DNA from: Phyto melanocephala
Lineage: Eukaryota; Arthropoda; Insecta; Diptera; Rhinophoridae
Assembly: GCA_941918925.1 (NCBI GenBank)
Contig: OW799237.1
Coordinates: 71,603,626 to 71,667,625 of the forward strand
Length of the DNA: 64,000 bases
Reading direction: 5' to 3'
The first letter of the stretch is position 1, and each line of letters starts with the position of its first letter. A program made the translations under genes and the position numbers. The notes beneath the pieces were generated by a model that saw only the letters and a list, made by a program, of their open reading frames with translations, searched no databases and was not told the DNA's origin. Shown here in pieces: positions 1,582 through 61,093 of this stretch.

Positions 1582-2430
1582 TCAATTAAAACACACACAA
1601 AATCCCTTGGAACTACAATAACCACTGCTATATTTTTGTTTAATGCAGTAAACAACACAATGTGAAATATTTAGTCTGAAAAGGCCACTTGTTGTATAAC
1701 AAGCCTCGAGATTAGCACCTTCTAAACCTGAAGTTTCTTCTAAGGCAATTTGAACAGGTACTTTGCATTCAGCCTTAGGGAAGTCATTATTAGCTACTGC
1801 AAAGTCATCTGAATCAGTTGAATTGTTGGCAGTAAGTTGGCTTTTAATAGAATTTTGACAAACACAAATGTTAGTGACAGTACAGAAGCCAGTATTGTAT
1901 TTACTATTTTTGCAAAAAGAAACACAACGATGTTGATTCAGTCCTAAAAGTGGAAACGCTGATATCTTGGTGCAAATTTCTTGCTTAGTATTTGCGAAAC
2001 TACTGCTACTACTAGTCCTTTTTGAGGTTTCTGATTTGACCTCTACGACGGGTTTTTTTAGTTTACCTTTTATCGCATTAAAACACATACAATAGCCTAT
2101 GATACTGCAATAGCCATTGTTGTAGTTGTTAATCTTTTTACAATGAACATCACATTGCGAATGATTCAGTTTAAATAGATTATTCGGTAAAAGGCAAGCT
2201 TCGCGCTTAGCTCGTCTCCTCAAACCGTAAGTTGTTTCTAAGGTATTTTGAATAGATTCTTTAACTCCGACCTCAGCAGGAACAATATTATCGATTGCTG
2301 CAAAATCGTTGGCATCTAGCTTAGCAATGTCAGATTTATCGAGAACGTAAATGTCATCTTTCCCATTTTTGGCTTTCACTAGGCTAATAGTCAAAATAGC
2401 AAGAAGTAGCAATGACCAAAAGATTTTCAT
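1582..2430 (-). CDS. D1: secreted three-domain defensin-like (CSalpha-beta) protein
   Basis: Predicted secreted antimicrobial-type protein, 282 aa. Fifteen in-frame codons precede the chosen ATG at 2430. I chose it because it opens a good signal peptide (MKIFWSLLLLAILTISLVKA), as in the paralogues. Three domains follow at C79-C116, C153-C191 and C244-C280, spaced C-x13/15-C-x3-C-x9/10-C-x5-C-x-C with GYC/GFC cores, the layout of insect defensins (three expected disulfides). A furin-type site RAKR (73-76) lies three residues before the first domain cysteine, as in classical fly prodefensins. Domains 1 and 2 are joined by a Ser/Lys-rich linker. C222 is an unpaired extra cysteine. It is the most divergent intact copy, with no frameshifts and no visible intron. 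Family assignment is strong; antimicrobial activity is inferred. Confidence 0.85.
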   Translation of the reverse strand: MKIFWSLLLLAILTISLVKAKNGKDDIYVLDKSDIAKLDANDFAAIDNIVPAEVGVKESIQNTLETTYGLRRRAKREACLLPNNLFKLNHSQCDVHCKKINNYNNGYCSIIGYCMCFNAIKGKLKKPVVEVKSETSKRTSSSSSFANTKQEICTKISAFPLLGLNQHRCVSFCKNSKYNTGFCTVTNICVCQNSIKSQLTANNSTDSDDFAVANNDFPKAECKVPVQIALEETSGLEGANLEACYTTSGLFRLNISHCVVYCIKQKYSSGYCSSKGFCVCFN

Positions 2431-2433
2431 TCT

Positions 2434-2690
2434 TTTTAATAAAAATTTACTGAGAATCGGAATATATAATGTCAAGTATGTAAATATGTAGTTCTAAGAT
2501 ATCTTTTTCTGTGATAAGACTGGAAATTCGGCTGTGGTATATATACCAAAAAAGTTCTTGCTATTGTTTAAAGATTCTGCTTAAATTTGACATACATACA
2601 TATTTGTATTTGTTGTTTTGTATTTTTCTAAATATTATTAAAAAAGATATTGTTTATTAACACGTGCATTAAACAAAAGTTTTTGAAAAT
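2434..2690 (-). promoter_or_regulatory. D1 promoter: TATA box and conserved middle block
   Basis: On the minus strand, AGCAAGAACTTTTTTGG runs into TATATATACC (2536-2547), about 105 bp upstream of the ATG. It matches AGCAAGAAACTTTGG-TATAAATAC of D2/D3. Farther upstream, 2651-2680 (GTTTATTAACACGTG on the plus strand, then CATTAAACAAAAG) matches the middle block of the other copies. The distal GATC block was not found. Confidence 0.6.
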
Positions 2691-2903
2691 ATTAATTTTA
2701 TTATTCGCCAGTTATTGTTATAAACAAATGCATAGATGACAGCAGAGTACACAGCTACATGACTGCTGCTTAATTATATTGAAGGCGACAGAAATTTTGT
2801 AATAAGCAGATTTGAAATAGTCAGGCTTTGTAGCTTTAATTATATTCATTTCTTTATTTTAGATTTTATTAGTTGCTGAAATTTTTGAAAATATAAATTT
2901 TTA

Positions 2904-3020
2904 CTGCCGTATTAAAAAAAAGTATTTTAGGTTTATTAAAGGCTTATTTGACAAATTTCTCTACAACATCTTTTAAATAAGCCTTTAATAAACCTAAAAT
3001 TTTTTTTATGCATGCGGCAG
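2904..3020. mobile_element. 117-bp fold-back MITE, TTA target duplication
   Basis: It is bounded by TTA on both sides (2901-2903, 3021-3023) and by CTGCCG / CGGCAG ends. Inner arms 2925-2949 and 2975-2999 are perfectly complementary over 25 bp, so the element folds into a long hairpin. A sister copy lies at 15274-15374. A 3-bp TTA/TAA duplication suggests PIF/Harbinger mobilisation. Confidence 0.75.
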
Positions 3021-5759: not shown

Positions 5760-5762
5760 TTA

Positions 5763-9910: not shown

Positions 9911-12910
9911 TTACTCTATTGCCTGCGTCCAGGCGGTTAATGGTAAACCCCTATCCAAGTCAATCTTCTTCATCTTAAGGACGTTTTCCGCATACTTTGC
10001 CACCTTTTGCCAATTTTCATTTCCGCGTAACATTTTGCTGACAATATTCTCAACAGTTATGCGACCAATCGCCTTCTCCAATTCCTTTCTCTCGTTTTTC
10101 CATCGCTCGCAATTAAAGAAAGTATGCTCCGCATCGTCAATTGCTCCGTCGCCATATACACAGCTTGGATCGTCCGCTTTTCCTATTCTAAAAAGGTATT
10201 TTCGGTAATAGCCGTGTCCCGAAAGCATTTGGGTTAAGTAGTAATTTACCTCTCCCTCTTTTCTATTGAACCATTCAGCAATCCTTGGAATTAGTTTTGC
10301 GGTCCATTTGCCCTTTACAGAACTGTTCCATTTCTCTTGCAACTTCCTTAGTGTTTCCATTCGCAACTCTCTTTTATCTACTTCGTTTCCCTGCTTTCGT
10401 TCAGCGTATATTCTTACTCTCTCCTCAATTAAAAGGTCTATGGGGATTGTACTGCTGATTATAAAAACGGCTTCCTGTGAAACTGTCCGATATGCTGATG
10501 CAACTCTTAGCGCCGATGTTCTCTGTGTAGTTAATAGTATGTTTCGCATGTTTTGTGTTCTAAGATATGTTCCCCACACTTCGCTGCCATATAAAAGCAC
10601 TGAATTTGTAGTATCCATTAACAATTTCCGCTTGAGCTGTGTTGGTCCTCCTACATTTGCCATAAGTTTACTGAGCATTCCTATTACTTTCCCTGCTTTG
10701 TCGGCAACATGATTTATCTGATGGGTGAATTTAAGCCTGCTATCAAATCTGACTCCCAAGTATTTTAGAATATTAGCCGTCGTTATCCTTGTGTCCAGAA
10801 TGTCGAAAACCATCTCAAGGTGTATATGTTTTTTTGTCAGTAGTATAAGCTCCGTTTTCTCCGTAGCGAGACTTAACCCATGTTGCTCCAGCCATGTTTT
10901 ACTCCGGAGCATTACCATATTTAATTTCCGTTTAACGTCGTCTACATTTCTACCAGTAATAACAGCTGCTATATCGTCCGCATAACCTACCAGGTGGCAG
11001 TCATCGGGCATTTCCAGTCTGAGGATTTGATCGTACGTAATATTCCACAGATCTGGTCCAAGTATGGAACCCTGTGCAGCTCCTGACGTTATTTTCCTTG
11101 CCTTTAGTCCGCTTGTTGTATCGTAGAGAAGAGTACGATCGCTAAGGTAACTTTTGATTATATTTAGTAAATACACAGGGATTCTGAAATTAACTTTCAA
11201 AGCTTCTATAATGTCCTTCCATTGTAGGCTGTTAAATGCATTTCGGACGTCTAATGTAGCTAACAAAACGATATTTCTGGAATAATTACTTCCTTGCTGA
11301 GCTCGTTCGACACTCAAAACCACGTCTTCTAGTGCTCCAAGTGTTGATTTTCCCTTTCTGAAGCCATGTTGTCTTACTGATAGACCTCCTAACCTCTTAA
11401 CTTCTATTGTGAGTCTGCCTTTTATAAGCTTTTCAAAAAGCTTTCCGGTCACATCAAGCATGCATAGTGGTCTATATGCTGAGGGATGTGTTGGATCTCC
11501 CTTCCCTTTACTAATCAAAACCAACTTCTGTTTCTTCCATATCTTTGGAAATATTCCATGTGCCCAGCACAGATTAAACATTCCCAAAAGTATGTTTGGG
11601 CGATTCTCAGCTACGCATTTTAAAACCTCGGCTGGGATTCCGTCGGGTCCTGGAGCTTTATTCCGTTTGAAGCTTTTGGCTGCTAGCAAAAGCTCGTCCT
11701 CTGTAAAAGGCGGTGGAGTCTCACTTATTTCAAAAAGTTCCTCAAATTCTTCATGATTCGGAAATAGGGCGTCCACAATACGCTTCGCATTTTCGCTATC
11801 CATCGGCTCCGTTCCAGATTTTGCAATAAGTTTCTGAGTAACTAGCCTATACCCAAGTCCCCATGGGTTGTTATTTATATCGTTTCTCAGTTCTTCTAGC
11901 TTATTTCTTTTGCTTCTCTCTATTGCTAATTTCAGCCCCATCTTGGCTTTCTTGTGGCGTGATTGCTCTGTTATAGCTGGTCCTGTTTTCCTTGCTCTGG
12001 TAAGTTTTCTTCTTGTTTTTAGGCATACTTTCCTTAGTTCGGCTATCTCTGATGTCCACCAGTGCATTGCTTTTCGTTTTCCTCTTCCTCTGTTTTTTGG
12101 CATAGATGCATCACAGCTTTTAACTATGCTTTGCATCGTTTTCCTTATTACTTGCGAATTGCTGCCAGTCTGATTGAAACTCTCCATACGTCTATCAATA
12201 TTCGCGATTAGTATCTCTGTATTCAGTTTTGATACATTCCACTTCCTCGTCCCAAGATATTTTCCTAGGTTTGGTCGGTTGTGGGCACTTTCCTTATTCA
12301 TGGTATAGGTGATATATTGATGATCACTACCAGTAAATTCCTCCATCACTTTCCAGTTTTCTACTCTTGAAGCTATTATCTCGGAAACTAGTGTTATATC
12401 TGGGGTAGTTTCCTGACATCCGGGTCTTCTATATGTGGTTGCTCCCCCTGTGTTTGCCACTACGAGATCCAATCTCCCCGCCATATCAAGTATTAAACGA
12501 CCCCTAGAGTTTGTGTTTGGTGCGCCCCATTCTATTGCCTTGGAATTAAAGTCTCCAGCGATTATCCAAGGTCCACCGATCTCCCTGGCTGTGTCCTCGA
12601 TGATATTCAGCTTTCTCTCAAACTCATCTATAGTATCACTAGGTGTAAGATAACAGCTCATCAGATTACATACCGTTGTCTTTACATATGCTAGGCAGTC
12701 GTTGTTTCCCGTCCGTGTTATACTTGCGGCGCTGCTACGTGGTTTCCATATCGCCGCTGTTCCTGTACAGTCACTCAGCCAAATGCCTGTGTTCTTAGGT
12801 CTATACTGTTCGCTTATTATAGCAATGTCTATCTCCTTCTCCACAACAATTTGTTCTATTAATGCATGTGCTGTCTTGCTCCTATGCATATTTGCCTGAA
12901 GTATCCGCAT
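9911..12910 (-). CDS. LINE ORF2: endonuclease-reverse transcriptase
   Basis: 999 aa, uninterrupted. It nicks target DNA and reverse-transcribes the element RNA. An AP-endonuclease domain fills the first ~220 residues (MRILQANMHRS, IISEQY, IAGDFNSKAIEWG, TGSDHQYI). The reverse transcriptase follows at roughly 400-700 (KAPGPDGIPAEVLK, HGFRKGKSTLGALEDV, LDVRNAFNSLQW, GAAQGSILGP, catalytic YADD). A C-terminal zinc-finger-like segment (C...DDAEHTFFNC) lies near 905-925 with one usual cysteine not evident. The start ATG overlaps the ORF1 stop by one base (TGATG), implying termination-coupled reinitiation. All expected catalytic motifs are visible, so the protein could be active. Confidence 0.9.
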   Translation of the reverse strand: MRILQANMHRSKTAHALIEQIVVEKEIDIAIISEQYRPKNTGIWLSDCTGTAAIWKPRSSAASITRTGNNDCLAYVKTTVCNLMSCYLTPSDTIDEFERKLNIIEDTAREIGGPWIIAGDFNSKAIEWGAPNTNSRGRLILDMAGRLDLVVANTGGATTYRRPGCQETTPDITLVSEIIASRVENWKVMEEFTGSDHQYITYTMNKESAHNRPNLGKYLGTRKWNVSKLNTEILIANIDRRMESFNQTGSNSQVIRKTMQSIVKSCDASMPKNRGRGKRKAMHWWTSEIAELRKVCLKTRRKLTRARKTGPAITEQSRHKKAKMGLKLAIERSKRNKLEELRNDINNNPWGLGYRLVTQKLIAKSGTEPMDSENAKRIVDALFPNHEEFEELFEISETPPPFTEDELLLAAKSFKRNKAPGPDGIPAEVLKCVAENRPNILLGMFNLCWAHGIFPKIWKKQKLVLISKGKGDPTHPSAYRPLCMLDVTGKLFEKLIKGRLTIEVKRLGGLSVRQHGFRKGKSTLGALEDVVLSVERAQQGSNYSRNIVLLATLDVRNAFNSLQWKDIIEALKVNFRIPVYLLNIIKSYLSDRTLLYDTTSGLKARKITSGAAQGSILGPDLWNITYDQILRLEMPDDCHLVGYADDIAAVITGRNVDDVKRKLNMVMLRSKTWLEQHGLSLATEKTELILLTKKHIHLEMVFDILDTRITTANILKYLGVRFDSRLKFTHQINHVADKAGKVIGMLSKLMANVGGPTQLKRKLLMDTTNSVLLYGSEVWGTYLRTQNMRNILLTTQRTSALRVASAYRTVSQEAVFIISSTIPIDLLIEERVRIYAERKQGNEVDKRELRMETLRKLQEKWNSSVKGKWTAKLIPRIAEWFNRKEGEVNYYLTQMLSGHGYYRKYLFRIGKADDPSCVYGDGAIDDAEHTFFNCERWKNERKELEKAIGRITVENIVSKMLRGNENWQKVAKYAENVLKMKKIDLDRGLPLTAWTQAIE

Positions 12911-14660: not shown

Positions 14661-14664
14661 GTAC

Positions 14665-14901
14665 GCATACGTTCATGAAAGAAAAATACAACGGATATAG
14701 TTTTAGGTAAAAGAGGTAATCCTTGAGCTATTAATATCTCGTTTAGTGCCTTTCATACCAAAATTTTATTCTAAGGCGATTTGAAAATTTCTGAATTATC
14801 ATTAGCTTTAATTTAAGTAGGGTCAATATTGTCGAAGTTTCTTCAAAGCTTCTGTTTTCAATAGGGCAACACTCAATATTGCAAAAAGTGAAAAACTTCA
14901 T
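14665..14901 (-). pseudogene. psi1: decayed defensin-like gene
   Basis: Minus-strand sequence aligns base by base with the 5' half of D5/D2. The ATG at 14901 starts MKFF; after a one-base shift a signal-peptide-like AILSVALLKTEAL appears. Further on comes QIALE-stop-NFGMKGTKRDI, then a domain-1 remnant ending in IRC. At least three in-frame stops are present, plus the frameshift, and the first domain cysteine codon has become Asn. Homology fades below about 14665, so domains 2 and 3 are gone or unrecognisable. The promoter upstream is still legible. Confidence 0.8.
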
Positions 14902-18795: not shown

Positions 18796-19215
18796 AAATA
18801 TTTCTGGTTTTTGAACAAGACATAAACAAGCGAATTATGAAAAATACACAACTGAACTGAACTTAATTAAATAGACGATACGTGTATACGTGCACAACTT
18901 GACTGTTTGAAGATAAGTAATAATTAGGAGTGAATTCGACTATTGTAAAATGTTGTTCACTCGATCGAGTCAATCTTTCGTGCTGACGTTTGTAGTAGCA
19001 TCAACTTTAAATTACATATTCTGATCTACTAAAGGGCAATAAAATTATCAGTCTGTGAAACGGTATTCATCATTCCATTCGTGGGTTATTATGTTAATGC
19101 TGTAATCGAGAAATAAGTGGAAACTTTAAATATATATTAATGATAATAAGTGTACATCACTTTTTAGTAAAAAAAATTTAAAAACAAAACAATTAAAACT
19201 AAAACAATAATTAAG

Positions 19216-19545
19216 TAGATCACAAAACATTATTAGATCCACAAAGGTTTCTCTTTCAAAAATAAAGAAACAATTATTTCAGCTGTTCTACAATGCAAAT
19301 TTCCCTAAGACTAATATAAAAAACAATTGTCTTATACACGACCTAATAAACTGTACATTTTAACAATACACAATAATAATTTATAAAAAAAAAGCACTGA
19401 CAACCTCAACGACAATCCTTTCAAAACAGCAAGAAACTTTGGTATAAATACAGCACCTTTTCAGCCCAACAAAATTACTTTAAACTATTACTCTGCAACT
19501 ATCGAATGTTTTAATTGTAGTTCTTAGTGAAGTTTTTTTTAAAAA
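19216..19545 (+). promoter_or_regulatory. D2 promoter: distal, kB-like, middle, proximal blocks
   Basis: Distal AGATCACAAAACATTATT followed by AGATCCACAAAGG (19217-19248). kB-like GCAAATTTCCC (19295-19305; reverse strand GGGAAATTTGC). Middle AACAATTGTCTTATACACG (19322-19351). Proximal CAACGACAATCCTTTC, then CAGCAAGAAACTTTGG and TATAAATA (19405-19450), about 100 bp before the ATG. Each block recurs at other copies. Confidence 0.7.
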
Positions 19546-20354
19546 TGAAATTTCTTTGCATATTATTGCCTCTACTTGGAATGGTTGTTGTTGGCCTAGT
19601 GAAAGCCGCAAACTTGGAAAATGCTAACGTTATCGACAATGCTGACTCTACTGTAACTATCGCCAACGATGTAGTCGTAACTGTTGATTCTGTTTCTACT
19701 AATATTCGAAGAAAAAAAAATGTTCAACTTCCCTCAGAAGCAAACTTTGGTTTGAAGGGTGTTAATCGCTATATCTGCAGTTCAACGCTTATTCCTTTCA
19801 CACAAAATCACTTACGTTGTGCTTTTCTTTGTGGAAGGTACAAGTACAAGACTGGTTTCTGTACTTTCAAAAGCGTTTGTACGTGTCAAAATCCCATAAA
19901 TAACGAAATTAGTGCTAACGAATTTGTCATTCCTGATGATACTGATTCCACTGAGAGCCGCAGTGTAGAACTTGCTGAGAACCATTATTGCAGCTCAGAA
20001 TTTACTCCCTTTAGACAATATCATATGCGTTGTGATTTTAATTGTAAAAGGAATAAATATAGGATAGGTTTTTGTAATTTCAAGGGCGTTTGTATGTGTC
20101 GTGATCCCATAAGCAGAGAAATTGACACCAGTGATTTAATCTTAACTGTAGTCACAAAGTCTGCAAAGGTTAAACTTGAAGAACCAGTCAAAATTGCCTT
20201 AAAAGAGTTATACGGTTTGCCAGATATTTGCAGCGAAGTACAAAAGTTTATTCTTTTTGCTCTGAATGATTTGCATTGTGATGATCAATGTGTAAAGAAT
20301 AGCTTTAAGTACGGTTATTGTACATTCGAAGGCGTTTGTATGTGCCAAAAGTAG
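19545..20354 (+). CDS. D2: secreted three-domain defensin-like protein
   Basis: 269 aa. The ATG at 19545 is chosen because it starts the conserved signal peptide MKFLCILLPLLGMVVVGLVKA; an in-frame GTG 18 bases earlier has no support. An acidic propeptide-like region (21-54) is followed by RRKK (55-58), a degraded furin site. CSalpha-beta domains lie at C78-C114, C149-C185 and C229-C267, spaced 13-3-9-5-1, 13-3-9-5-1 and 15-3-9-5-1, each with a G-F/Y-C core. The linker before domain 3 (PVKIALKELYGLPDIC) repeats the one before domain 1 in degenerate form (VQLPSEANFGLKGVNRYIC). All 18 domain cysteines are present. Likely a secreted immune effector; whether it is processed into three peptides is unknown. 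Confidence 0.88.
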   Translation: MKFLCILLPLLGMVVVGLVKAANLENANVIDNADSTVTIANDVVVTVDSVSTNIRRKKNVQLPSEANFGLKGVNRYICSSTLIPFTQNHLRCAFLCGRYKYKTGFCTFKSVCTCQNPINNEISANEFVIPDDTDSTESRSVELAENHYCSSEFTPFRQYHMRCDFNCKRNKYRIGFCNFKGVCMCRDPISREIDTSDLILTVVTKSAKVKLEEPVKIALKELYGLPDICSEVQKFILFALNDLHCDDQCVKNSFKYGYCTFEGVCMCQK

Positions 20355-20392
20355 GGTTAACAATTTTATGCGTTTGAAGTCGTATTTTATGT

Positions 20393-20398
20393 AATAAA
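20393..20398 (+). terminator. D2 polyadenylation signal
   Basis: AATAAA 39 bases after the stop codon, followed by an A-rich run. Confidence 0.6.
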
Positions 20399-20499
20399 CT
20401 AAAAAAAAATATGAGAAATGTGTTTTTTTTATTTATTTTTTGAAGCCTAACCTCAAGTGTCTTTTAGTTCCATTTTTTTTACTTTATTTTGTGACCCTT

Positions 20500-23289: not shown

Positions 23290-23377
23290 AATATGTATAC
23301 ATATTTATATGTACATGTATGTGTGGGTACATGTATATGTAAGTGTATATATAGTTGTATATGTACATATATGTATG

Positions 23378-23408
<31 letters not shown>

Positions 23409-23650
23409 ATGTACATAGGCATGCACGTGTATATGTGTATATATGTATATACATGAATATGTGTATATGTATGTGTATATATATGCATGTATATGTATGT
23501 GTATATATATGCATGTATATGTATGTGTATATATATATATAATTGTATATGGATGTGTATTTATACATGTATATGAATATGTACATGTAAGTGTTTATAT
23601 GTATATATGCTTGTACGTATATGTACATGCACATGTATATGTACGTATTA
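23290..23650. repeat. (TATG/TGTA)n microsatellite, about 360 bp
   Basis: Imperfect alternation of TATA, TGTA and TATG words on both strands. The long open frames here are Tyr/Ile/Met low-complexity artefacts. Confidence 0.9.
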
Positions 23651-27016: not shown

Positions 27017-27164
27017 AATTACCAACAAAGAATAAATGTTTGCATCGTGTCCCTATATTTTGTATTTTATTTTTTTGTATTAAACTAATATTTTTAAGTT
27101 TTACTCAGGCTTGAGTTTAATTAGAATTTTCTTTTTCTAAAAAAAATAAATGTGATAATAAACA

Positions 27165-27262: not shown

Positions 27263-27908
27263 TAACTTTCCAGATTATTCTTTTTATCATCACAATTAAA
27301 TCTACATATATTTGTATACATACATATACATATGTATAATATAATTGCCGCAAAGAAAAAAAGGTATTGACAAATTTATTTGACATATACAAATTTATAA
27401 AGAAATATTCATACGACTCAGCGTACAAAAAAAGGACATAGTTTAAAAGTCACATTTACTTTTACTATTTATTTTTGTAAAGTCCTTAGTGTACTTTGTA
27501 TTTTTGGTTTCTTGAAAGACATGAACAAGCGATTAAAGAAAAATACTTAATTGAACTGAACTTAATTAAACAGTTATTATGTGTATACGTGCACAACTTG
27601 ACTGTTTGAATAAAACTAATAGTTTGCATTTGATTAGTGTAAAATTTTGCTCACTTGATCAGGTCAATTTCTGGTGCTGATACTTGTAACACTATCAACA
27701 TTAAATTACATATTATGATCTTTTAAAGAGCAATAAGTTTTTTATGGAACGGTATTCATTAATCCATTCGTATGTTATCAAGTGTAATCGAGAAATAAGT
27801 GGAAACTTTAAATATATATTAATGATAATAAGTGTACTTCACTTTTTAGTAATAAAAATTTAAAAACAAAACAAACGTTAACAATTAAAACTAAAACAAT
27901 AATTAAGT

Positions 27909-28234
27909 AGATCACAAAACATTATTAGATCCACAAAGGTTTCTCTTTCAAAAATAAAGAAACAATTATTTCAGCTGTTTTTCAATGCAGATTTCCCTAA
28001 GACTAATATAAAAAACAATTGTCTTATGCACGAGCTAATAAACTGTACATTTTAACAATACACAATAATAATTTATAAAAAAAAGCACTGACAACATCTA
28101 CGACAATCCTTTCAAAACAGCAAGAAACTTTGGTATAAATACAGCACCTTTTCAGCCCAACAAAATTACTTTAAACTATTATTCTGCAACCATCGAATGT
28201 TTTAATTGTAGTTTTTAGTGAAGTTTTTTTAAAA
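27909..28234 (+). promoter_or_regulatory. D3 promoter blocks
   Basis: Distal AGATCACAAAACATTATT (27910-27942). kB-like GCAGATTTCCC (27987-27997). Middle AACAATTGTCTTATGCACG (28014-28042). Proximal CGACAATCCTTTC, CAGCAAGAAACTTTGG and TATAAATA (28097-28142). Same spacing as D2. Confidence 0.7.
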
Positions 28235-29044
28235 ATGAAATTTCTTTGCATATTATTGCCACTACTTAGAATGGTTGTTGTTGGCCTAGTGAAAGCCGAA
28301 AACTTGGAAAATGCTAACGTTATCGACAATGCTGACTCTACTGTAACTATCGCCAACGATGTTGTCGTAGGTGATGATCCTGTTTCTGCTGAGGTCGGAA
28401 GAAAAGAATGTGTTCAAAAAGCCTTAGAAAAAAACTTTGGTTTAAACGGTGTTAATCGATACATCTGCAGTTCAACGTTTGTTTCTTTCACACAAAATCA
28501 CTTACGTTGTGCTTTTCTTTGTAGAAGGTACGAGTACAAGACTGGTTTCTGTACTTTCAAAAGCATTTGTACGTGTCGAGATCCCATAAATAACGAAATT
28601 AACGCTAATGAATTTGTCATTTCTGATGAGACTGATTCCACTGAGAGCCGCAGTGTAGAACTTGCTGAGCGACATTATTGCAGCTCAGCATTTCCTCCCT
28701 TCAGACAAAATCATATTCGCTGTGATTTTATTTGTAAAAGTAATAAATATAGAACAGGTTTTTGTAATTTCAAGGGCATATGTTTGTGTCGTGATCCTAT
28801 AAGCAGCAATAGTAATTCCAGCGTTTTAATCGTAACTGAAGGCACGAATTCTGCAGAGGTTAAACATGAAGAACCAGTCAAAATTGCCTTTAAAGAGTTA
28901 TACGGTTTGGCAGATATTTGCACCAAAGTGCTAAAGTTTAATCTTTTTGCTCTGAATGGTTTAAAGTGTGATGTTCAATGTGTAAAGAATAGCTTTAAGT
29001 ACGGTTATTGTACATTCGAAGGCGTTTGTATGTGCCATAAGTAG
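28235..29044 (+). CDS. D3: secreted three-domain defensin-like protein
   Basis: 269 aa, the closest paralogue of D2, with the same signal peptide (one change, LRMVVVGLVKA). Domains lie at C78-C114, C149-C185 and C229-C267. The furin-type motif of D1/D4 is reduced to GRKE (55-58), and a lone extra cysteine follows (C59), giving an odd cysteine count outside the signal peptide. Domain 1 tolerates charge changes (GRYKYK to RRYEYK). Domains 2 and 3 differ from D2 mainly on surface positions, while every domain cysteine and the GFC/GYC cores are kept. The reading frame is intact, so selection is likely. The D2/D3 duplication looks recent. Confidence 0.87.
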   Translation: MKFLCILLPLLRMVVVGLVKAENLENANVIDNADSTVTIANDVVVGDDPVSAEVGRKECVQKALEKNFGLNGVNRYICSSTFVSFTQNHLRCAFLCRRYEYKTGFCTFKSICTCRDPINNEINANEFVISDETDSTESRSVELAERHYCSSAFPPFRQNHIRCDFICKSNKYRTGFCNFKGICLCRDPISSNSNSSVLIVTEGTNSAEVKHEEPVKIAFKELYGLADICTKVLKFNLFALNGLKCDVQCVKNSFKYGYCTFEGVCMCHK

Positions 29045-29369
29045 GGTTAAAAATTTTGTGCGTTTGAAATCGTGTTTTATGTAAAAAATTAATAATGTTT
29101 CATAAAGCGAAAAATATATATTAAAAATATAAGATATGTGTTTTAATTTTATTTCCTGAATCCTGGGGTCAAGTATCTCTAAGTTTCTAATTTATGTTGA
29201 TTTTGTTTAGTGACAGTGTCGACAAAGCGACTACTTTTTTCACTTTGCGCTTTGATGTCTAAAGGATTTTCCTCTTTAATAAGACATCTAATTTTAAGAA
29301 AGTTTATGAAATTGTTTGAAATAAGTATATTATATATATCCTTATATTAATTTGCCAATACAAATGTTA

Positions 29370-44914: not shown

Positions 44915-45154
44915 AAAATTGCATTTTAAGACATACGCAGTTGCTTATGAAAACCACAGAATTAAGCCTTCTACGTACAACGAAAATGATTTTGAGTGAG
45001 CAGAAAGTGTTGTTTGAGCTACAAATATATCGGTTTTCATTAGACCAACAGTAAAAATTGCAAGGACTGGCAACAAGGTTAAGCAAAGTCAAATTTTTAA
45101 GTTAAATTCACTGACAATTACAATTTAGAACGTTAATGGGTTTTAAAATTTCAT
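44915..45154 (-). pseudogene. psi2: decayed defensin-like gene
   Basis: Minus-strand similarity to the D-family: ATGAAATTT at 45154 but stopped at once. A signal-peptide-like LPVLAIFTVGLMKT appears in a shifted frame. Then RYICSS, and in a further frame LLTQNHFRC, and finally NCVCLK resembling the C5-x-C6 end. The acidic pro-region is missing. At least two frameshifts and stops lie inside domain 1, and no domain 2 or 3 was recognised. Inactive. Confidence 0.72.
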
Positions 45155-50205: not shown

Positions 50206-51210
50206 TGCTTTGTATTGAAATCGGAATATTAGAAAGAGAGTTATAGTACGTAATGCAAGCGTAGGTGAAAAAAACATGTTCTTCCAACGTCAAATAAAAT
50301 GCAATGTGTCCAAGTGGAGCCATGAAATTTCGACTGTATATTTCCTGAGTAAAAAGGATATTTTTTTTCCCAAAAATTGCTTAAGTCAATAAGTAAGGAA
50401 AGGAGTTATAGATCAAAATGTATGAAAATATATACCGCACAGTGTATTTTTCGGTATATTTAAAATTTAAAACGCAATAAAACTGACAAAATTAGATGTA
50501 TGATTCTGGAATCTTGCAAACATTTCTTTTTGATCAAGGTCTTTGTACTAATGGAAAATAAATGTGACACGCCCACTTTTACGTCCACCTCCCATATAAC
50601 GCTTAATCTCAAATTTATATAATTTCTCTATGAATAAATATTTTGCAAGAATAAAGGACTCTATATTGAAATATCTGAGTTCAGTTTATATGCAGAAACT
50701 ATTTCGACACGCCAACTATAACGCCCACTTCTCACGTAATCTACTGTTAATGAAATTTAAAAGCTCATAAAACCAACAAAATTAGAGGTATGATGATGAA
50801 ATTTCTTATATATAGCTTTCTAGTCAATGTCGCTGTTATGCCAGAAAAAAAGGTGACACGCCCACTCTAACGCCTACCTCCCATATAACGCTTTATCCTT
50901 AATTCATATAATTTCGCTATGGACAAAGTTTCTAAAAGAATAAAGAACTTTATTGAAATATCTAAGTTGTATTTATTAGCAGAAACTATATTGACGCGCC
51001 TATTTTAACGTCCACTTTCATTAGAAGACTAAATTTACGAAAACATTTTACCAGCATATCGAAGTTGTACGAATAAAGTGATACTTATTTTAGTATAAAG
51101 AGATTAGCGATTATGTTAATGACAGCAATAAATTTTGTGCTAAAAAGTACACAAAATTGGTGGTGGGTATCAAAAATTCGGCACAGCCGAATATAGTGCT
51201 GTTACCTGTT
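50206..51210 (-). repeat. Family A fragment abutting the D4 promoter
   Basis: It contains the family A blocks 'atcggaatattagaaagagag', 'ataccgcacagtgtatttttc' and CCACCTCCCATATAACGC, and ends TTCGGCACAGCCGAA, then GTTACCTGTT. No MITE is present. The end lies directly against the kB-like site of D4. Confidence 0.7.
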
Positions 51211-51216
51211 TTCAAA

Positions 51217-51451
51217 GCAAATTTCCCCAAACCTAATACAAAAAACAATTGTTTAATACACGAGTTAATGAACTAACAATAGATTGTTAAAAAAAATAGT
51301 ATTGACAAACGCAACGACAATCCTTTCAGAAGAGCAAAAAATTTTGGTATAAATACAGCACCTTTTAGCCCAACAAAATTACTTTAAACTATTTTCTTTC
51401 AACTATCGAATGTTTTAAATTGTAGTTCTTAGTGATTATTTTTTATTAAAA
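51217..51451 (+). promoter_or_regulatory. D4 promoter, truncated by family A repeat
   Basis: kB-like GCAAATTTCCCC (51217-51228; reverse strand GGGGAAATTTGC). Middle AACAATTGTTTAATACACG (51244-51273). Proximal CAACGACAATCCTTTC, AGCAAAAAATTTTGG and TATAAATA (51312-51356). The distal GATC block seen in D2/D3 is missing because the repeat begins there. Confidence 0.7.
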
Positions 51452-52222
51452 ATGAAATATCTCTCGATATTACTGTCACTACTTGCTGTTGGCCTAGTGA
51501 AAGCCGAAAACTTGAAAGATGCTAACGCTCTCGAAAGTGTTGACTCTACTGTAACTACTGCTTCTGCTCATGGCCGAAGAAAAAGATGTGTTCAACTTCC
51601 CTTAGAAAGAAACTTTGGTTTGAAGGGTGTTAATCGATACATCTGCAGTTCAACGTTTATTTCTTTCACACAAAATCATTTCCGTTGTGCTCTTCTTTGT
51701 AAAAGGTACAACTACAAGACTGGTTTCTGTACTTTCAAAAGTGTTTGTACGTGTCAAAATCCCATGAATAACAAAATTTGCGCTAACGGTTTTGCGATTT
51801 CTGATGATACTGATTCCACTAAGTACGGGCATAAAGAATTTGCTGAGCGAGGTATTTGCAGTGTAGAAACCGCTTCCTTGAGACCAAATCATACCCGTTG
51901 TGATGCTCATTGTAGAAGGAATAAACGGAGGACAGGTTTTTGTAGTCTCAAAGGCGTATGTATGTGTAACAAACCCATTAGCAGCGAAATTAATACCAGC
52001 GATTTAATTGTAACTGAAGGCACAGATTCTGCTGAGGTTAAACTCAAAAAACCAGTCGAAATTGCTTTAAAAGAGTTAAATGGCTTGCCAGATATTTGCA
52101 GCGAAATAACAGAGTTTAACTTTTTTACTCAAAATGATTTGAATTGTGATATTCAGTGTGGAAAAAATAGCTACATGTTGGGTTATTGTACATTCGAAGG
52201 CGTTTGTATGTGCTATAATTAG
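51452..52222 (+). CDS. D4: secreted three-domain defensin-like protein
   Basis: 256 aa. The ATG at 51452 starts MKYLSILLSLLAVGLVKA, a clear signal peptide. The propeptide is shorter than in D2/D3 and ends in a perfect furin-type RRKR (42-45). Domains lie at C65-C101, C136-C172 and C216-C254 with the family spacing. Two extra cysteines, C46 just after the furin motif and C110 just after domain 1, bracket domain 1 and could form a fourth disulfide. Domain 2 has diverged most (SLRPNHTRCDAHC). The linker before domain 3 keeps PVEIALKELNGLPDIC. The frame is intact and an AATAAA lies 80 bp downstream. Confidence 0.87.
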   Translation: MKYLSILLSLLAVGLVKAENLKDANALESVDSTVTTASAHGRRKRCVQLPLERNFGLKGVNRYICSSTFISFTQNHFRCALLCKRYNYKTGFCTFKSVCTCQNPMNNKICANGFAISDDTDSTKYGHKEFAERGICSVETASLRPNHTRCDAHCRRNKRRTGFCSLKGVCMCNKPISSEINTSDLIVTEGTDSAEVKLKKPVEIALKELNGLPDICSEITEFNFFTQNDLNCDIQCGKNSYMLGYCTFEGVCMCYN

Positions 52223-52302
52223 AGTTACCAACTTATGCGTTTTAAATCGTGTTTTATGTATTAATTTAATATTGAATCATAAACCAAAAAATATATATTA
52301 AA

Positions 52303-53450: not shown

Positions 53451-54678
53451 AAGAATGAGATCAGTGAAACCTTAACACACATTTTTAATTCCACCTTTCT
53501 TCATGCACAAAAAATATAACTGTTTATGATCAAGTTTGGATTCCGAAGAAAAAGTGCGTGAAAAAATAATAACAATTTTTTTAAAAAATTCCAGTCGTAC
53601 TTACAAATCTATTGCAAATGAGATAAAGGTGTCACGACAAACAGTTTCGCGTGTGATAAAAGTGTATAACGAACGTCGTAGTATTAAAAGGAAAGCTGGA
53701 AGTGGAGCTAAAAAAGGTATAACTGACCCACAGTTAGCTTCAAAGATTGTTAGTCTTCTAAACCAAAATCCCAACCTCTCAAACCGTAAAGCCGCCTTAA
53801 AAGCAAACTGTTCCGATTTTTTTGTAAGGAAGGTTAAAAGATATGAAGGCCTTAAGTCCTACAAGGTTCAGAAAGTGCCAGACAGAAATTCGAAGAAAAA
53901 CTTGGATGCAAAAAGTCGTGCCAAAGAACTGCTTAGAAATTTTATCAACAAATATGAGTGTTGTATTATGGATGATGAGACTTACGTTCTTGCCGACTTT
54001 TCTCAGCTCCCAGGGCGAAGTTATTATGTGGCCGATGGAAGAGGTAATGTCGATGACCAATTTAAGTTCCAAAAAAAGACAAAGTTTCCAAAGAAGTACT
54101 TAGTTTGGCAAGCTATATGCACGTGCGGAGAAAGAAGCAGTAAATTTATTACTACTGGGACTATCAACACTGATATTTACATCAAGGAGTGCTTGCAGAA
54201 GAGGTTGCTTCCATTCATACGAAAACACAATAAGTCAACATATTTTTGGCCCGACCTAGCGTCGTGTCATTATAGTAAATCTGCAGCAGAATGGTATGAA
54301 AGAAATAATATAGTGGTAGTGCCAAAAGAAGCAAATCCACCTAATTGTCCAGAACTAAGGCCCATCGAACGTTACTGGGCTTTAGTCAAAAGAGTGCTGA
54401 AGGATACAAAACAAGTTGCTAATACTACTAAAATTTTTTCCCAGAAATGGTCTTATTCCAGCAATAAAGTTACTAAGGATACCATCAAAACCCTCATGGT
54501 CTCAATTCCGGAAAAGGTGAAACAGTTCATCAAAAAAAGCTGAATTTTTACAAAAAGCATTAATATTTTAATTTACTGTTATTTTATTGTTAAACCACGC
54601 TATTTTCATTAAAATGGATTAATTCGTTTCAAAGTTATTGCGTTTTATTCGTGTTAGGGTTTTATCGATCTCATTCTT
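53451..54678 (+). mobile_element. Complete Tc1-like (DD37E) element
   Basis: TIRs AAGAATGAGATCAGTGAAAC (left) and the complement of AAGAATGAGATCGATAAAAC (right) extend about 27 bp, with TA on both sides (53449-53450, 54679-54680). Length 1228 bp with one transposase frame. It sits immediately beside the family B terminus. Confidence 0.88.
53536..54543 (+). CDS. Tc1-like DD37E transposase, ATG lost
   Basis: 335 codons, uninterrupted. Cut-and-paste transposase acting on the flanking TIRs. The N-terminal helix-turn-helix part is YKSIANEIKVSRQTVSRVI; a second DNA-binding half covers about 60-115. Catalytic residues: Asp in CCIMDDETYV, Asp in YFWPDLASCHYS, Glu in ELRPIERYW, with 37 residues between the last two (DD37E). 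The frame starts at TTG (TTGGATTCCGAAG) with an in-frame stop three codons upstream. The usual ATG appears mutated to TTG, and the next Met lies in the catalytic domain. Apart from that the protein looks complete, so the copy was recently active or initiates at a non-AUG codon. Confidence 0.82.
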   Translation: MDSEEKVREKIITIFLKNSSRTYKSIANEIKVSRQTVSRVIKVYNERRSIKRKAGSGAKKGITDPQLASKIVSLLNQNPNLSNRKAALKANCSDFFVRKVKRYEGLKSYKVQKVPDRNSKKNLDAKSRAKELLRNFINKYECCIMDDETYVLADFSQLPGRSYYVADGRGNVDDQFKFQKKTKFPKKYLVWQAICTCGERSSKFITTGTINTDIYIKECLQKRLLPFIRKHNKSTYFWPDLASCHYSKSAAEWYERNNIVVVPKEANPPNCPELRPIERYWALVKRVLKDTKQVANTTKIFSQKWSYSSNKVTKDTIKTLMVSIPEKVKQFIKKS

Positions 54679-54680
54679 TA

Positions 54681-55085
54681 TAATGTTCTGTAGAGCAGGT
54701 ATACAGGTATATAAAAATATCTTTTATGGGGATGTGTGGGACATTCCCTTATCACTATTATCGATAATAAAGAATTTTTAAAATTTATAATTATGGGCAG
54801 GTATTAACATTGTGAAGTGTTAAAAGTGATGTGAATAACAGTTGAAACAATAATTTAAAATACAGAAAAGTTTATGTCGATATAAATGTATAAGAAAAAG
54901 TGCATAAAGAGCAAAAATAGAAGAAATGTGAAAACTTAAAAAAAAAATCGTCAAAAATAATGGCGCAAACTTGCGCAGACTTTTTTTCTTGTTTCTAAAA
55001 TTAGAGATTCCAAATTTCATTGTGGTATTAAACATAATTCGTAGAGATGCTAACCTCACTTTTAAAAACCTCTTATACACTCTTA
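54681..55085. other. No recognisable feature
   Basis: AT-rich spacer between the Tc1-like element and a family A repeat. Confidence 0.4.
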
Positions 55086-57510
55086 TTATACCCGCCACCA
55101 AAAAAATGGTGGGGGTATATTCATTTTGTCATTCCGTTTGTAACACATCGAAATATCCATTTTAGACCCCATAAAGTATATATATTCTGAATCAGGGTTT
55201 GAATTGATGACGATCTAGCTATGTCCGTCCGTCTGTCCGTCTGTCCGTCTGTCCGTCTGTTGAAAGCACGATAGAGGTCGCACCGAAATAGCTAGGGGGC
55301 TCAAATTTTGCCAGAATCTTTCTTATAGACAAGGTTTGTTTGGTATTGAAAATGGGCTAAATCGGAATATTAGGAAGAGAGTTATAGCTCGAAAAGCAAG
55401 AGTATGTCGAAAAAACCGTGTCCTACGAACATCGAATAAAATGGAATTGTGTCCAAACGGATTAACGTAGACTCATGAAACTTCGAATATATATTTCCTG
55501 AGTAAAAGCAATATTATTCCCCGAAAATTATCTAAATTTATGCATTAGGAGAGGAGTTATCGATCAAAATGTACGAAAATTTATACCGCACAGTGTATTT
55601 TTCGGTATATTTAAAAACAAAAACGTCATAAAAGCAACAAAATTGGATGTACGACTCTGAAATTTCGCACACTTTGCTTTTTGATGAGGGGCTTTTTTGT
55701 AACGGAAAATCAATATGCCACGCCCACTTTTACGCCCACCTCCCATATAACGTTTTAGCTCAAATTCATATAATTTCTCTATTAATAAAGATTTTGGAAT
55801 AATAAAGTGCTATATTGAAACACCTAAGTTGTACTCATTCGCAAAAATAACTTTGACACGCCTACTATAACGCCCACTTTCTACGTTATCCACCGTAATG
55901 AAATTTAAAAGCTCATAAAACCACCAATATTAGAGGTATGATGATCCAATTTGCTAGGTATATCCCCCTAGGCAATTTCATTACTGTGCCAGAAAATTGA
56001 GGTGCCACGCCCACTTTTACGCCCACCTCCCATATAACGCTTTAACTAAAATTCATATAATTTCTCTATTAATAAAAATTTTTAAATAATAAAGGGCTAT
56101 ATTGAAACACCTAAGTTGTACTCATTCGCAAACACAACTTTGACACGCCTACTATAACGCCCACTTTTCACGTTATCTACCGTTAATGAAATTTAAAAGT
56201 TCATAAAACCACCAAAATTAGAGGTATGATGATCAAATTTGCTACGTATAACCCCCTAAGCAATGTCATTACTGTGCCAGAAAATTAAGGGGCCACGCCC
56301 ACTTTTACGCCCACCTCCCATATAACGCTTTACTTAAAATTCATATAATTTCTCTATTAATAAAAATTTTGGAATAATAAAGGGCTATATTGAAATATCT
56401 AAGTTGTACTCATTCGCAAATACAACTTTGACACGCCTACTATAACGCCCACTTTTCACGTTATTTACCGTTAATGAAATTTAAAAGCTCATAAAACCGC
56501 CAAATTTAGAGGTTTGATGATCAAATTTGCTACGTATATCCTCCTAATTAATGTAATTGTTGTGCCAAAAAGTTTAGGTGACACGTCCACTTTAACGCCT
56601 ACCTCCCATATAACGGTTTATTTTTAATTCATGTTAGTTCTCTATTGACAAAGTTTTTTGGAAAATAAAGGACTATATTGAAATATCTAAGTTGTATTTA
56701 TTAGCAGAAACTTTATTGACACACCTACTTTAACGCCCACTTTCATTGAAAGACTACATTTACAAAAGCATTTTAGTAGCATATCTAAGTATCTGATGGT
56801 CCAAATTTTCAATGACAATGTTGATGCTCAATTGCTGGGCATGATGATGAGGCGATGTTGACTGCTCTTTTGCCACACTATCGCAAAAACCAGCAGTGGT
56901 TCCCATTCAACGAATTAAGAAGTCAGGATTATGTTGATCAAAAGAATTACGAAGTGCATAAAATGCATTTTGTTTTGAACGCCCATTTTCATAAAAAAAA
57001 CCTGAATATTAAACCTGAAAATTAATTTACAAATAATTAATTAATAATAATTAATTAATTAATTAATTAATAATAAATAATTAATAATAATGAATTTTCC
57101 TGAAGATGCTACACGAAGGAGTAGCGAAATATTGAGAATTTAAATACAAAAATTGGATATTTAAGTATGAAAATTTAAAAAAATAGATCAAATAAAATAA
57201 ATAACTAAACCTGAATAACTTTAACGCGTTGCTCATTTAGGTATCTTTCCACTGTTCAAATTAAGTTAGTCTGAGATTGAGAAATGTCAAATGAAATGCA
57301 AAAAAAAACTTGTTGCTTATGTGTGGTTCACCTTCAACAGGGGCCCTTAAAAATTAACCACCCTCTATAAAGAAAGTAATACATATTTTATTTTAAAGAG
57401 ATTATTCCATAGTGATTAACAAAATAATAAATAATGTACTTTAAATGTACACAAAATTGGTGGTGGGTATAAAAGATTCGGCACAGCCGAATATAGTGCT
57501 CTTACTTGTT
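55086..57510 (-). repeat. Family A repeat copy 4
   Basis: A full reverse copy, TATACCCGCCACCAAAAAAA to TTCGGCACAGCCGAA and CTTACTTGTT. GCCACGCCCACTTTTACGCC recurs at about 55718, 56007 and 56294, with a diverged unit at 56582. It includes a MITE remnant (about 56787-57366) and a (TTAA)-rich microsatellite (57025-57095). Confidence 0.75.
56787..57366. mobile_element. Mariner-derived MITE remnant inside family A copy 4
   Basis: It starts abruptly at 'atctgatggtccaaattttc' with the outer TIR missing and ends AAATTAACCACCC. Same relative position as in copies 2 and 3. A (TAAT)n expansion interrupts it. Confidence 0.65.
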
Positions 57511-58200
57511 TTTTTTTTGCTTTTGAACGAATTGTTTCAACATGAATATTCAACATATTTTAAATTTTTTTCCTTTTTTAAATAACTTTTGATCAAACCT
57601 TTCAGCGAAAAAAAAAATTATTGTTAAACCTTTAAAATTCATATAAACATCCAGAAACCGAAAAAAACATTTAAATCTCATATAATTTTCTACACTTTCC
57701 TGACTTAAGCAGGGTCTGAGAGCTACAAATCGCAACTAAAGGTCTTCAAAATTTACAATATAATGTAAAATATTGTTGTCTGTCGACCTGCAAACTTAGT
57801 TCTAAAGATTTCTTAAAATTCAGTTTTGCCTTTTTGGCCAGCTTTTCAGGTCCAATACTCCTCTGTGCGTCTGTGGAATTTGCTGCCGAAAATTTTGTGT
57901 TGATTTTCAATGGGTCGATGCAAATATTTACTGGGAAAGTTAATGAACACACCTAATATTTCATTAAATGTTGCAAGTTTTTTATGTTTTATTTTTTTTT
58001 CATTTTTAAAAACTTTGATAGAAACGTTGGATAATTTCTTTGAACGAGAATACCTCGTTTCTTTTACATTTCTATAACGGAAAGTTTTTCAAACAAAACG
58101 CTGGAATAGAAGAAAAAACTAAATGCAAATTAAAACCATTTTCTCTGTGATTTTTAATGTTAAAAATAAATATTCAGTTTTTAACCTAAACAATTTCGGA
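57511..58200. other. No recognisable gene
   Basis: AT-rich. Minus-strand open frames at 57550-57952 have no recognisable domain and are probably chance. Confidence 0.35.
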
Positions 58201-58204
58201 TTTT

Positions 58205-58725: not shown

Positions 58726-59114
58726 TTTTTTTGCGTTTAATAAAAAATCGTGTTTCAAGGTCTTCCGGCTACAATGCATTTGTTAAACAATTTTAGTGCT
58801 TTTAGATGGAAAAGCAGAGGATTTTAGGTTGCTGCTTAAATAGCTACCGATGTATGAGCAAACATCTCATTGAGTTTGTCATTATTTTTCTGCTTTAGCA
58901 TAATTTATAGACACGATTGTGACCAGAAATATGCGTGAACAATTTTGGACAAGTGGATCACCAATCGTCAAAGTTATAGCAAAAACTATTTGGAAAAATG
59001 TGTATTTTTTTTGGACACGCTGTAGACACAGAATCATAAGCCGTGATCTCAGCAATTATTTCAGCGAAAAAATTACAAATCGGTTTGAAAATGAAATAAA
59101 AGCATGAAAGTATA
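58726..59114. other. No recognisable feature
   Basis: AT-rich sequence right of the mariner relic. No motif recognised. Confidence 0.4.
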
Positions 59115-59545
59115 AATACTTTGGTGTTTTTCCTGAAATTTATAAACGAAAATCGGTTTTTTCAATTTCTCTACAACGGGGAGAGCCAATATGAGTATCA
59201 AATGAAAGGACTAAGCTAGCGCAATATAATTCACTTTAAAAAAGAAATTAAAATCCATGATGCCCACTACAATTTTATGGCAGGAAATAAATTGATATAT
59301 GCGTTATATCTGATATATCAAGATGTACTCCCTTGATACCCTCAATAATGGTATCAATCCCCACCATAATGGTATCAATCTTGACCAGTGAAATTCAGAT
59401 AACTATGAACAAATAAAAAGTCAAGATGGCGCCCTTCAAGATGTCCCCTTGAACCTCCGCAATAGTGTAATCAAATGAAAGGGCTTGATTAGTAGAATAC
59501 TGTTAACTTAAGATCAAAGATGGCGTCGAAAATAAAAAAGAAAAT
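59115..59545 (+). repeat. Left half of a family B repeat split by D5
   Basis: Matches family B copy 1 in order: 'gtatcaaatgaaaggact', 'gcgcaatataattcact', 'gttaactta', 'agatggcgtcgaaaataaa'. It breaks off after 'aaaaagaaaa' near 59545 and continues at about 61478. Confidence 0.65.
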
Positions 59546-60106
59546 TACTTGCCTATTTATACATATATGTGTAAGATGTCATCTGAAGTTGGGAAATATT
59601 TTTAATAACTAATAACAGTATTTTGTTGGTTTCTTTTCTTTATGAATTGCTTGGTTTTTATTCAAATAACTATTTATATTGATGTGATATTGTTTCTTTG
59701 AATAAAGCCGGCTAACAGATTACTTTTTATGTTCGTAGCCGAAAACAGGGTTTTGTAAAATATAAACTCGAAATAACCGAAAACCGATTGATGAAAATAT
59801 TCGATCAAAATCAATACAATCAAACATTTATTTATTGGAACACAAATTAATACAAATCCGTGGTTACGGTTACTTCACTTCATATTTGAATAATGTCATC
59901 AATTTAATTAAATTACGTTTTTGTAAATATGTATAAGCTCGTATGTATATACTTATCTATCTACATGTGTTTGTATGTAACAGAATTATACACAAAATAT
60001 TGAAATAAATAACAAGTGAATATTCTTTGATTTTAAATGCATGCATGTATTTCAAAATTTATCAACAATTCTTTAAGGTTTTACACAAAACACCATACTC
60101 ATGAAG
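59546..60106. other. D5 3' flank, no other feature seen
   Basis: AT-rich sequence between the broken repeat and the D5 stop codon. No canonical polyadenylation hexamer stood out on the minus strand within 100 bp of the stop. Confidence 0.4.
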
Positions 60107-61093
60107 TTATAGACACTTACAAACGCCTTGGAAAGTACAATAACCAGCCTTATAGTTAATCTCTCTACATTGAAAATCACAGCGAAAATGTTTTCGTCTC
60201 AAAGGAAAAAATGATAAAATCTCTCTGCAAATATCTTCAAAACCAAAGGACTTGTCTAAGACAACTTCAACAACATCTTCACGTTTGGCAGAAGAAGTGT
60301 CATCAGCTGCGAGTAAATCACTAGAATTATTACACACACATACGTCTTTCAAAGTGCAATAACCAAACAAATAGTTAATCTTTTTACATTCGATTTCACA
60401 GTGCAAATAATTAAATCTGAAAAGATTAAACTTCAACACCTTGGTGCAAATATCTGGCAAGCCATATACATCTTTAAGGGCGATTTGAACTGGCTGTTGC
60501 AGTTCAGCCTCAGCAGAATCATTGTCATCCGGTACAATTAAATCACTGGTGCTATTTTGGCTGCTTATGGGATCCTCACATATACAAACATTCTTGAAAG
60601 TACAATAACCTGAATGGTGATTATGCCTTTTACAATAGCGTACACAAAGAAAATGATTTTGTCTAAAAGAAGAAATTGCAAAGCCGCAAATAGCTTGTTC
60701 TACAGGTTTTTCACCTCTGATTTCCAAAGAATCAGTAACATCGTCTACGATAAAATTGTTATCGCTAATTTCGTAGCTTATGCGATTATAACACATACAA
60801 ACACTTTCAGAAGTGCAATTACCAGCCATGTATTTGTGTCTTCTACAGTGAAAACCACAACGGAAATGGTTTTGCGTGTAAGGAGTAATCTTTGAGCTAC
60901 AAATATCTCGTTTAACCCCTATCAAACCAAAATTTTCTTCCAAGGCAAGTTGAACAGATTCCTCTTTTTCGGCATCAACAGAATCAGTATAATAAGCTGT
61001 GGCTAAATAATTGGTATTAGTTACAGCAGAGTCAGCATTGTCGAAAACAGCCGACATTTTAAGAAGTGACAACAATATCCAGAAGAATTTCAT
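60107..61093 (-). CDS. D5: secreted four-domain defensin-like protein
   Basis: 328 aa and the only four-domain member: C65-C101, C136-C172, C216-C254 and C289-C327, all with the 13/15-3-9-5-1 spacing. Domain 1's core reads GNC instead of GFC/GYC. The start at 61093 gives MKFFWILLSLLKMSAVFDNA: the hydrophobic core is present, but the VGLVKAENLENAN stretch found in D2/D3 is deleted, so the signal peptidase site is less clear. No furin-type motif precedes domain 1 (AEKEESVQ). The linker motif V-x-I/L/V-x-L-x(4)-G-L/F occurs before domains 1, 3 and 4 (VQLALEENFGL, VQIALKDVYGL, VEVVLDKSFGF), showing growth by linker-plus-domain duplication. Frame intact. Confidence 0.86.
   Translation of the reverse strand: MKFFWILLSLLKMSAVFDNADSAVTNTNYLATAYYTDSVDAEKEESVQLALEENFGLIGVKRDICSSKITPYTQNHFRCGFHCRRHKYMAGNCTSESVCMCYNRISYEISDNNFIVDDVTDSLEIRGEKPVEQAICGFAISSFRQNHFLCVRYCKRHNHHSGYCTFKNVCICEDPISSQNSTSDLIVPDDNDSAEAELQQPVQIALKDVYGLPDICTKVLKFNLFRFNYLHCEIECKKINYLFGYCTLKDVCVCNNSSDLLAADDTSSAKREDVVEVVLDKSFGFEDICREILSFFPLRRKHFRCDFQCREINYKAGYCTFQGVCKCL

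Follow-up and report, generated by a model that had tools for sequence, protein, structure and literature searches.

Defensin genes in the window

The window, meaning the whole stretch of 64,000 nucleotides analysed here, covers positions 71603626-71667625 of contig OW799237.1 (C5 below) in the 740-Mb, 9-contig assembly of the fly Phyto melanocephala (Rhinophoridae), and it contains five intact genes, D1 to D5, each encoding several insect-defensin domains in a single open reading frame (ORF). A six-frame scan of the window gave 3+3+3+3+4 = 16 six-cysteine cores with one leader for each chain (Table 1), and the ORFs and the scan agree with a first-pass annotation that had described five intact genes of 3-3-3-3-4 domains behind one leader. 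The annotation had also assigned six cysteines and the gamma-core glycine to every domain; in an alignment of all 16 domains the six cysteines are invariant, as is the glycine two residues ahead of the fourth. With three or four domains per ORF in 5/5 genes, the window departs from the single-domain architecture of classical fly defensins. A tighter cysteine pattern occurs 15 times in the window and not once in 60 dinucleotide shuffles. The other six-cysteine matches in the window are accounted for by a simple repeat rich in YIC (23.4-23.6 kb) and by one stop-broken stretch in another frame inside D3.

Table 1. Defensin genes, gene remnants, duplicated blocks and motifs, in window positions.
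Feature	Position	Strand	Basis or remark
D1, 282 amino acids, three-domain chain, predicted secreted	1582..2430	-	ORF with ATG and stop; Defensin_2 E 7.2e-10
D1 cores	2083-2196, 1858-1974, 1591-1701	-	six-cysteine scan
D1 furin-type motif RAKR, immediately ahead of first domain	2203..2214	-	
Dead copy (last part of pro-region, beginning of first domain)	14661-14790	-	two in-frame stops, first cysteine gone; also recovered by genome search
Duplicated block with D2 and upstream region, ~1.6 kb	18799..20405	+	self-comparison; 88% identical to 27499-29095
TATAAA, ~100 bases upstream of D2 ATG	19443..19448	+	TATAWA scan
D2, 269 amino acids, three-domain chain	19545..20354	+	ORF, Defensin_2 profile, six-cysteine scan
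D2 cores	19776-19886, 19989-20099, 20229-20345	+	
Duplicated block with D3 and upstream region	27499..29095	+	self-comparison
D3, 269 amino acids, three-domain chain	28235..29044	+	ORF, Defensin_2 profile, six-cysteine scan
D3 cores	28466-28576, 28679-28789, 28919-29035	+	
Possible dead fragment	44977-45035	-	77% over 61 nucleotides to D5; short, weak nucleotide match only
Block with D4 and upstream region, ~1.1 kb	51206..52264	+	self-comparison; 79% identical to 19283-20397 (D2)
D4, 256 amino acids, three-domain chain	51452..52222	+	ORF, Defensin_2 profile, six-cysteine scan
D4 furin-type motif RRKR in pro-region	51575..51586	+	starts 23 residues ahead of first cysteine
D4 cores	51644-51754, 51857-51967, 52097-52213	+	
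Possible dead fragment	58132-58173	+	80% over 44 nucleotides to D3; weak, nucleotide match only
D5, 328 amino acids, four-domain chain, shortened leader	60107..61093	-	ORF, Defensin_2 profile, six-cysteine scan
D5 cores	60791-60901, 60578-60688, 60332-60448, 60113-60229	-	

Domain identity and fold

The defensin homology proposed at first pass was confirmed by the Pfam profile Defensin_2 (PF01097), which scored above its curated cut-off in all five window proteins (E 1.8e-7 to 2.7e-12) and in six of seven further family proteins scanned, the miss being a single-domain ORF at C5:71269221. Among solved structures, the best sequence matches to D3 come from defensins of mosquitoes and flies and from variants of these (best E 1.6e-4). 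The predicted structure of one domain likewise has the helix and two-stranded hairpin of the cysteine-stabilised alpha-beta (CS-alpha-beta) fold, as in sapecin-type defensins, and the cysteine spacing would be compatible with C1-C4, C2-C5 and C3-C6 pairing. Neither the absence of a profile match nor the lack of the helix-sheet pair, both named at first pass as grounds for rejecting the proposal, was seen.

A scaffold of this kind could also serve an effector directed at other animals or at the physiology of the fly itself, i.e. a salivary, venom or reproductive-tract protein whose domains block channels or receptors. Foldseek ranks a robber-fly venom peptide with the same fold (6px8) second, followed by scorpion channel toxins, and the paralogues of the family diverge fast. 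However, antibacterial insect defensins rank equal to or higher than the venom peptide in the structure comparison and the fold is common to many functions, and we regard such an effector as unlikely. The 'venom-like' label of the first-pass annotation therefore extends as far as this common fold, with no direct support past it, and the resemblance to the robber-fly CS-alpha-beta venom peptides (Asilidin family 12) consists of the match to one peptide. The immune role named alongside it is plausible.

The family across the genome

Two protein queries, one of them D3, recovered about 74 family places in the assembly, a lower bound for detectable copies and not a gene count: matches within 1.2 kb were merged, fragments and matches to E 0.01 were counted, and the classical match at C3:116.32 was excluded, as were matches judged already covered. 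The window's own chromosome holds 47 of these places within 1.4 Mb (C5:71.27-72.71 Mb) and a second cluster of 1.0 Mb holds 19 (C3:21.18-22.17 Mb), while eight are scattered (three more on C5, two more on C3, two on C2 and one on C6). The five genes described at first pass are thus real, but their description as a five-gene array was too narrow, as they represent five of about 74 places in a family whose ORFs, where sequence was read, carry 1 to 13 domains.

Sequence was read for 49 of the 74 places, and 25 are known as search rows only. The stretches read contain 49 family ORFs with 129 domains, a count that excludes three classical ORFs and three ORFs on C4 and includes fragments of disrupted genes (two from C3:21.44 Mb, two from C5:71.67 Mb and one from C5:74.07 Mb). 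Single domains are found in ten ORFs, two domains in 17, three in 15, four in three, five in three and 13 in one. Judged by eye, the C5 cluster includes five apparently whole single-domain genes (71.269, 71.292, 71.295, 71.387 and 72.052 Mb), and four of them carry the furin-type motif RxKR ahead of the domain. C3 also has ordinary defensins, at 116.09 and 116.32 Mb, of which the one at 116.09 Mb matches sapecin at 37/39 residues.

Intact, truncated and dead copies stand side by side, in agreement with the birth-and-death evolution suggested at first pass. Of the two dead copies claimed in the window, one is clear (14661-14790), and two other remnants are only possible, as short nucleotide matches.

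Two further groups of loci were observed outside the window. At C5:72.237-72.421 Mb two family loci are each present three times, one at 72253340, 72337255 and 72421174 (spaced 83,915 and 83,919 bases, with identical scores) and the other at 72237098, 72322583 and 72406502 (spaced 85,485 and 83,919 bases); judged by these match positions, a stretch of about 84 kb may recently have been triplicated in tandem, unless the assembly is at fault. At C4:116541463-116560153, on a third chromosome, a separate small defensin group consists of three short CS-alpha-beta genes, each with one domain and a first loop of six residues.

Growth of the chains

A quick search for a domain tree (134 rows, 41 columns) gave a weakly resolved result in which window domains group by their position in the chain. 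With Shimodaira-Hasegawa-like approximate likelihood ratio test (SH-aLRT) support in brackets, a group made up of 11 first domains includes those of D2, D3 and D4 (85), the second domains of D2 and D3 belong to one second-domain group of 8 (93), and the third domains of D2-D5 belong to a 17-row group in which last domains from C3 are found as well (99). At each of three domain positions, D1 is paired with its counterpart in the gene at C5:71318151 (71.318 Mb). Across the tree, position labels change 27 times compared with 62.2 for shuffled labels, a clustering that near-copies alone favour. The position-wise grouping across D1-D5 indicates that multi-domain forms predate many of these gene copies, with some domain exchange or replacement.

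Elsewhere, domains group within their own gene, which suggests that the chain lengthened inside these genes: this holds for domains 2-4 of the 71.286 Mb gene, for all five of the 64.679 Mb gene, and for the 13-domain gene, where domains 4-7 pair with domains 9-12. The latter is a single ORF of 868 amino acids (L018:79-2682; C5:72452235-72454838) within which a stretch of about 1.27 kb is repeated at 92% identity. The third five-domain gene, at 72.077 Mb, has no signal of within-gene growth, and four of its domains (not the third) group with those of four-domain neighbours.

Processing of the chains

In classical fly defensins, RxKR is the furin-type motif expected to release the domain, and it is present in 3/3 classical defensins of this genome. 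In the family, RxKR lies within 8 residues ahead of the first domain in 15 of the 49 ORFs and at the corresponding place ahead of none of the 80 later domains. Counted anywhere in the segment, it occurs in 17/42 pro-regions versus 1/80 linkers, based on the 42 ORFs with a chosen start and omitting the RxKR-bearing single-domain ORF at C5:71.269 Mb. Among the window genes it is found in D1, directly before the domain, and further upstream in D4 (Table 1). Because the motif stands ahead of first but not later domains, the chains are probably secreted whole, with a pro-region that could be removed.

The same leader, pro-region and RxKR ahead of the first domain would also suit a polyprotein precursor, in which, as happens with other peptide precursors, one transcript would yield several different single defensins once proteases had cut the linkers. 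One linker does contain a full RxKR motif, and KR- or RR-containing junctions are present at 10/80 later domains; the genes concerned all lie at 72.08-72.45 Mb, where these pairs make partial cutting possible. Other proteases could act as well, but the near absence of RxKR between domains speaks against such a precursor, as does the moth analogue Spod-11-tox, which according to the available text of its report is not processed to active defensins (PMC2728511), and we consider a polyprotein improbable.

A homology of the pro-regions to those of classical defensins, noticed by eye, was dropped after 45 comparisons with the RxKR end removed (highest z 2.55).

Evidence for working genes

The ratio of non-synonymous to synonymous substitution rates (dN/dS) was 0.40-1.24 over whole genes (pairs among twelve genes with dS < 1.2, simple counting method) and reached 2.07 for the domains of one pair. 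Such ratios would be expected if the chains were little or never expressed and had drifted as a by-product of tandem duplication heading to decay, and dead and truncated copies are indeed common. One five-domain ORF (L010:832-2331; C5:64679244-64680743) also has no ATG ahead of its first domain, although its leader is otherwise recognisable.

Against drift, cysteines changed at 1/165 positions in ten gene pairs and other domain positions at 185/861, a contrast biased toward cysteine conservation by taking the pairs from ORFs that pass a cysteine pattern. Linkers change about as often as domains (249/1345 positions, p 0.09). The frames are also open, although at dS 0.12 about 10% of neutral copies would be expected to stay open and about 90% to be broken, counting substitutions alone. 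Further, a TATAWA box lies 60 to 135 bases upstream of the ATG in 40/42 family genes, in 3/3 C4 genes and in 0/3 classical genes, against a background rate of 35% for a box within 150 bases in random sequence; besides D2 (Table 1), the window genes have TATAAA at -101 (D3) and -104 (D4 and D5) and a TATATA at -115 (D1). Hydrophobic leaders were scored in 41 of 42 family genes. Taken together, the constancy of the cysteines, the open frames, the TATA boxes and the leaders favour working, fast-changing genes constrained mostly at the disulphide frame, and make decay by drift quite unlikely.

Other content of the window

The window has four copies of a dispersed repeat that contains tandem 288-base units (25674-27018, 37040-38725, 50218-51209 and 55082-56790; about 76-93% identity between copies), and one of these copies ends just upstream of D4. 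Three reverse transcriptase ORFs and a DDE transposase fragment are found among 9911-12910 (-), 15624-16700 (-), 31468-31884 (+) and 53968-54543 (+), the first of these (999 amino acids) carrying an endonuclease domain besides the reverse transcriptase. The simple repeat at 23305-23757 has YIC-rich ORFs on both strands and imitates cysteine patterns.

Proposed explanation

We lean modestly towards a fly family of secreted defensin chains that stay uncut and act by avidity. The observed architecture, clustering, dead copies and standing single-domain genes would fit an order of events, as we infer it, that starts from an ordinary defensin gene with leader, pro-region, RxKR site and one CS-alpha-beta domain. 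In-frame duplication inside the single ORF would then have given genes with 2 to 13 domains, followed by whole-gene copying and loss in two large clusters. Judging from motif positions and charges, the chain would lose its leader, undergo no more than one further cut, within the pro-region, and be released as one protein in which disulphide-locked, mostly cationic knobs sit on mostly acidic linkers. Several weak defensin-type faces per chain might then grip microbial surfaces harder than a single peptide, and this gripping would kill, clump or mark the microbes.

A number of points weigh against this explanation. The family is known here from DNA sequence alone. Foldseek with the domain model gave no match at E 0.001, and the full-length D3 model reached a predicted local distance difference test score (pLDDT) of 40 and was for this reason not used for the fold. 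D2, D3 and D5 lack any RxKR ahead of the first domain, which leaves the removal of their pro-regions unsupported by the motif, and similarity of the pro-regions to classical defensins past RxKR is unsupported in the 45 comparisons (mean z -0.04). The second domain of D4 stands apart from those of D2 and D3, with the second domains of two neighbours (SH-aLRT 99), and the history is accordingly not plain copying of a single three-domain gene. The high dN/dS values point to weak constraint outside the cysteines, and two window domains are net negative. Sites for kappa-B were not enriched within 300 bases (4/48 genes versus 9% expected) or within 1 kb (2/14 family genes versus 26%; stricter pattern 0/14 versus 4%), in a weak scan for which the three classical control genes gave 0/3 and 2/3. 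By analogy, the inactivity of Spod-11-tox as an antimicrobial (PMC2728511, in its available text) argues against a killing function.

Relation to known defensin chains

The closest likeness is to the 'defensin rosary' of X-tox proteins, in which several defensin-derived CS-alpha-beta domains share one leader in one secreted protein, an arrangement predicted for the fly chains. In the part of the X-tox report available (PMC2728511), these proteins are described as restricted to moths, with 11 domains in Spod-11-tox and three to six in others, compared with up to 13 in the fly family, and their spacers have no conserved cleavage sites, which resembles the scarcity of RxKR in fly linkers. Immune induction of Spod-11-tox in blood cells was demonstrated there; the protein is secreted and degraded in blood cells and is not converted to active defensins, its products have no antimicrobial activity, and the authors leave the evolutionary driver of their chains open (PMC2728511). 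The Spod-11-tox consensus C-x4-C-x3-C-x7-G-x-C-x3-K/R-C-x-C, as given in that text, matches 0/129 fly family domains, and the scale of about 74 places in one genome is unlike X-tox.

In the fly family, C1 and C2 are mostly 11, 13 or 15 residues apart, and the following spacings are nearly always 3, 9, 5 and 1. Classical fly defensins (sapecin, lucifensin, insect defensin A) have the same fold and this same x3-x9-x5-x1 spacing from C2 to C6, but their C1-C2 spacing is 12 residues, they have a single domain preceded by RxKR, and here they lie on another chromosome. Since the X-tox consensus is unmet and the spacing is that of fly defensins bar the first loop, we read the family as an independent fly version of the known kind of defensin chain, with a probable separate origin from fly defensins and set apart from X-tox by consensus and spacing.

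A second likeness is to the wasp Nasonia, where, in the available text, nasonin-2 and nasonin-6 have 4-5 defensin-like repeats per protein and no processing signals (PMC2853521). Each repeat of nasonin-6 has its own exon, whereas the intact fly genes hold all domains in one uninterrupted ORF, and two multi-repeat nasonin genes are named in that text compared with a large family here. Tandem clusters of fly defensins are known from the stable fly, with 11 genes on one scaffold, some of them diverged, and the accessible text makes no mention of several domains per protein (PMC7944917). No multi-domain defensin was found in the available text of a Lucilia cuprina paper (PMC12239484) or of a robber-fly venom paper (PMC6266666). 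Among the papers listed in literature searches, which mostly did not extend to subscription papers, we found no report of a fly protein with several defensin domains. Avian AvBD11 is a beta-defensin and has a different fold. Like the plant defensin MtDef5 (PMC5700942), AvBD11 (PMC9138766) combines more than one defensin unit in a protein as here, but in the text available both have only two.

It is in our estimate an even call whether uncut defensin chains evolved in flies separately from those of moths and wasps, as a superfamily of 1-13 domains per chain that lies mostly in two clusters and whose route can be read in one species. The chain architecture was already known from moths and a wasp, and the new elements are the unusual scale and the standing intermediates. 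Single-domain genes with a furin-type site coexist with genes of two to five domains and with one of 13, and if this view is right, the path from released peptide to multivalent chain becomes testable in one species. The fly lineage would then be another and richer case for testing what the chaining of defensins does. Should avidity prove to be how the chains bind microbes, multivalent antimicrobial proteins would have a natural template in them. The family may thus show how single defensins turn into chains.

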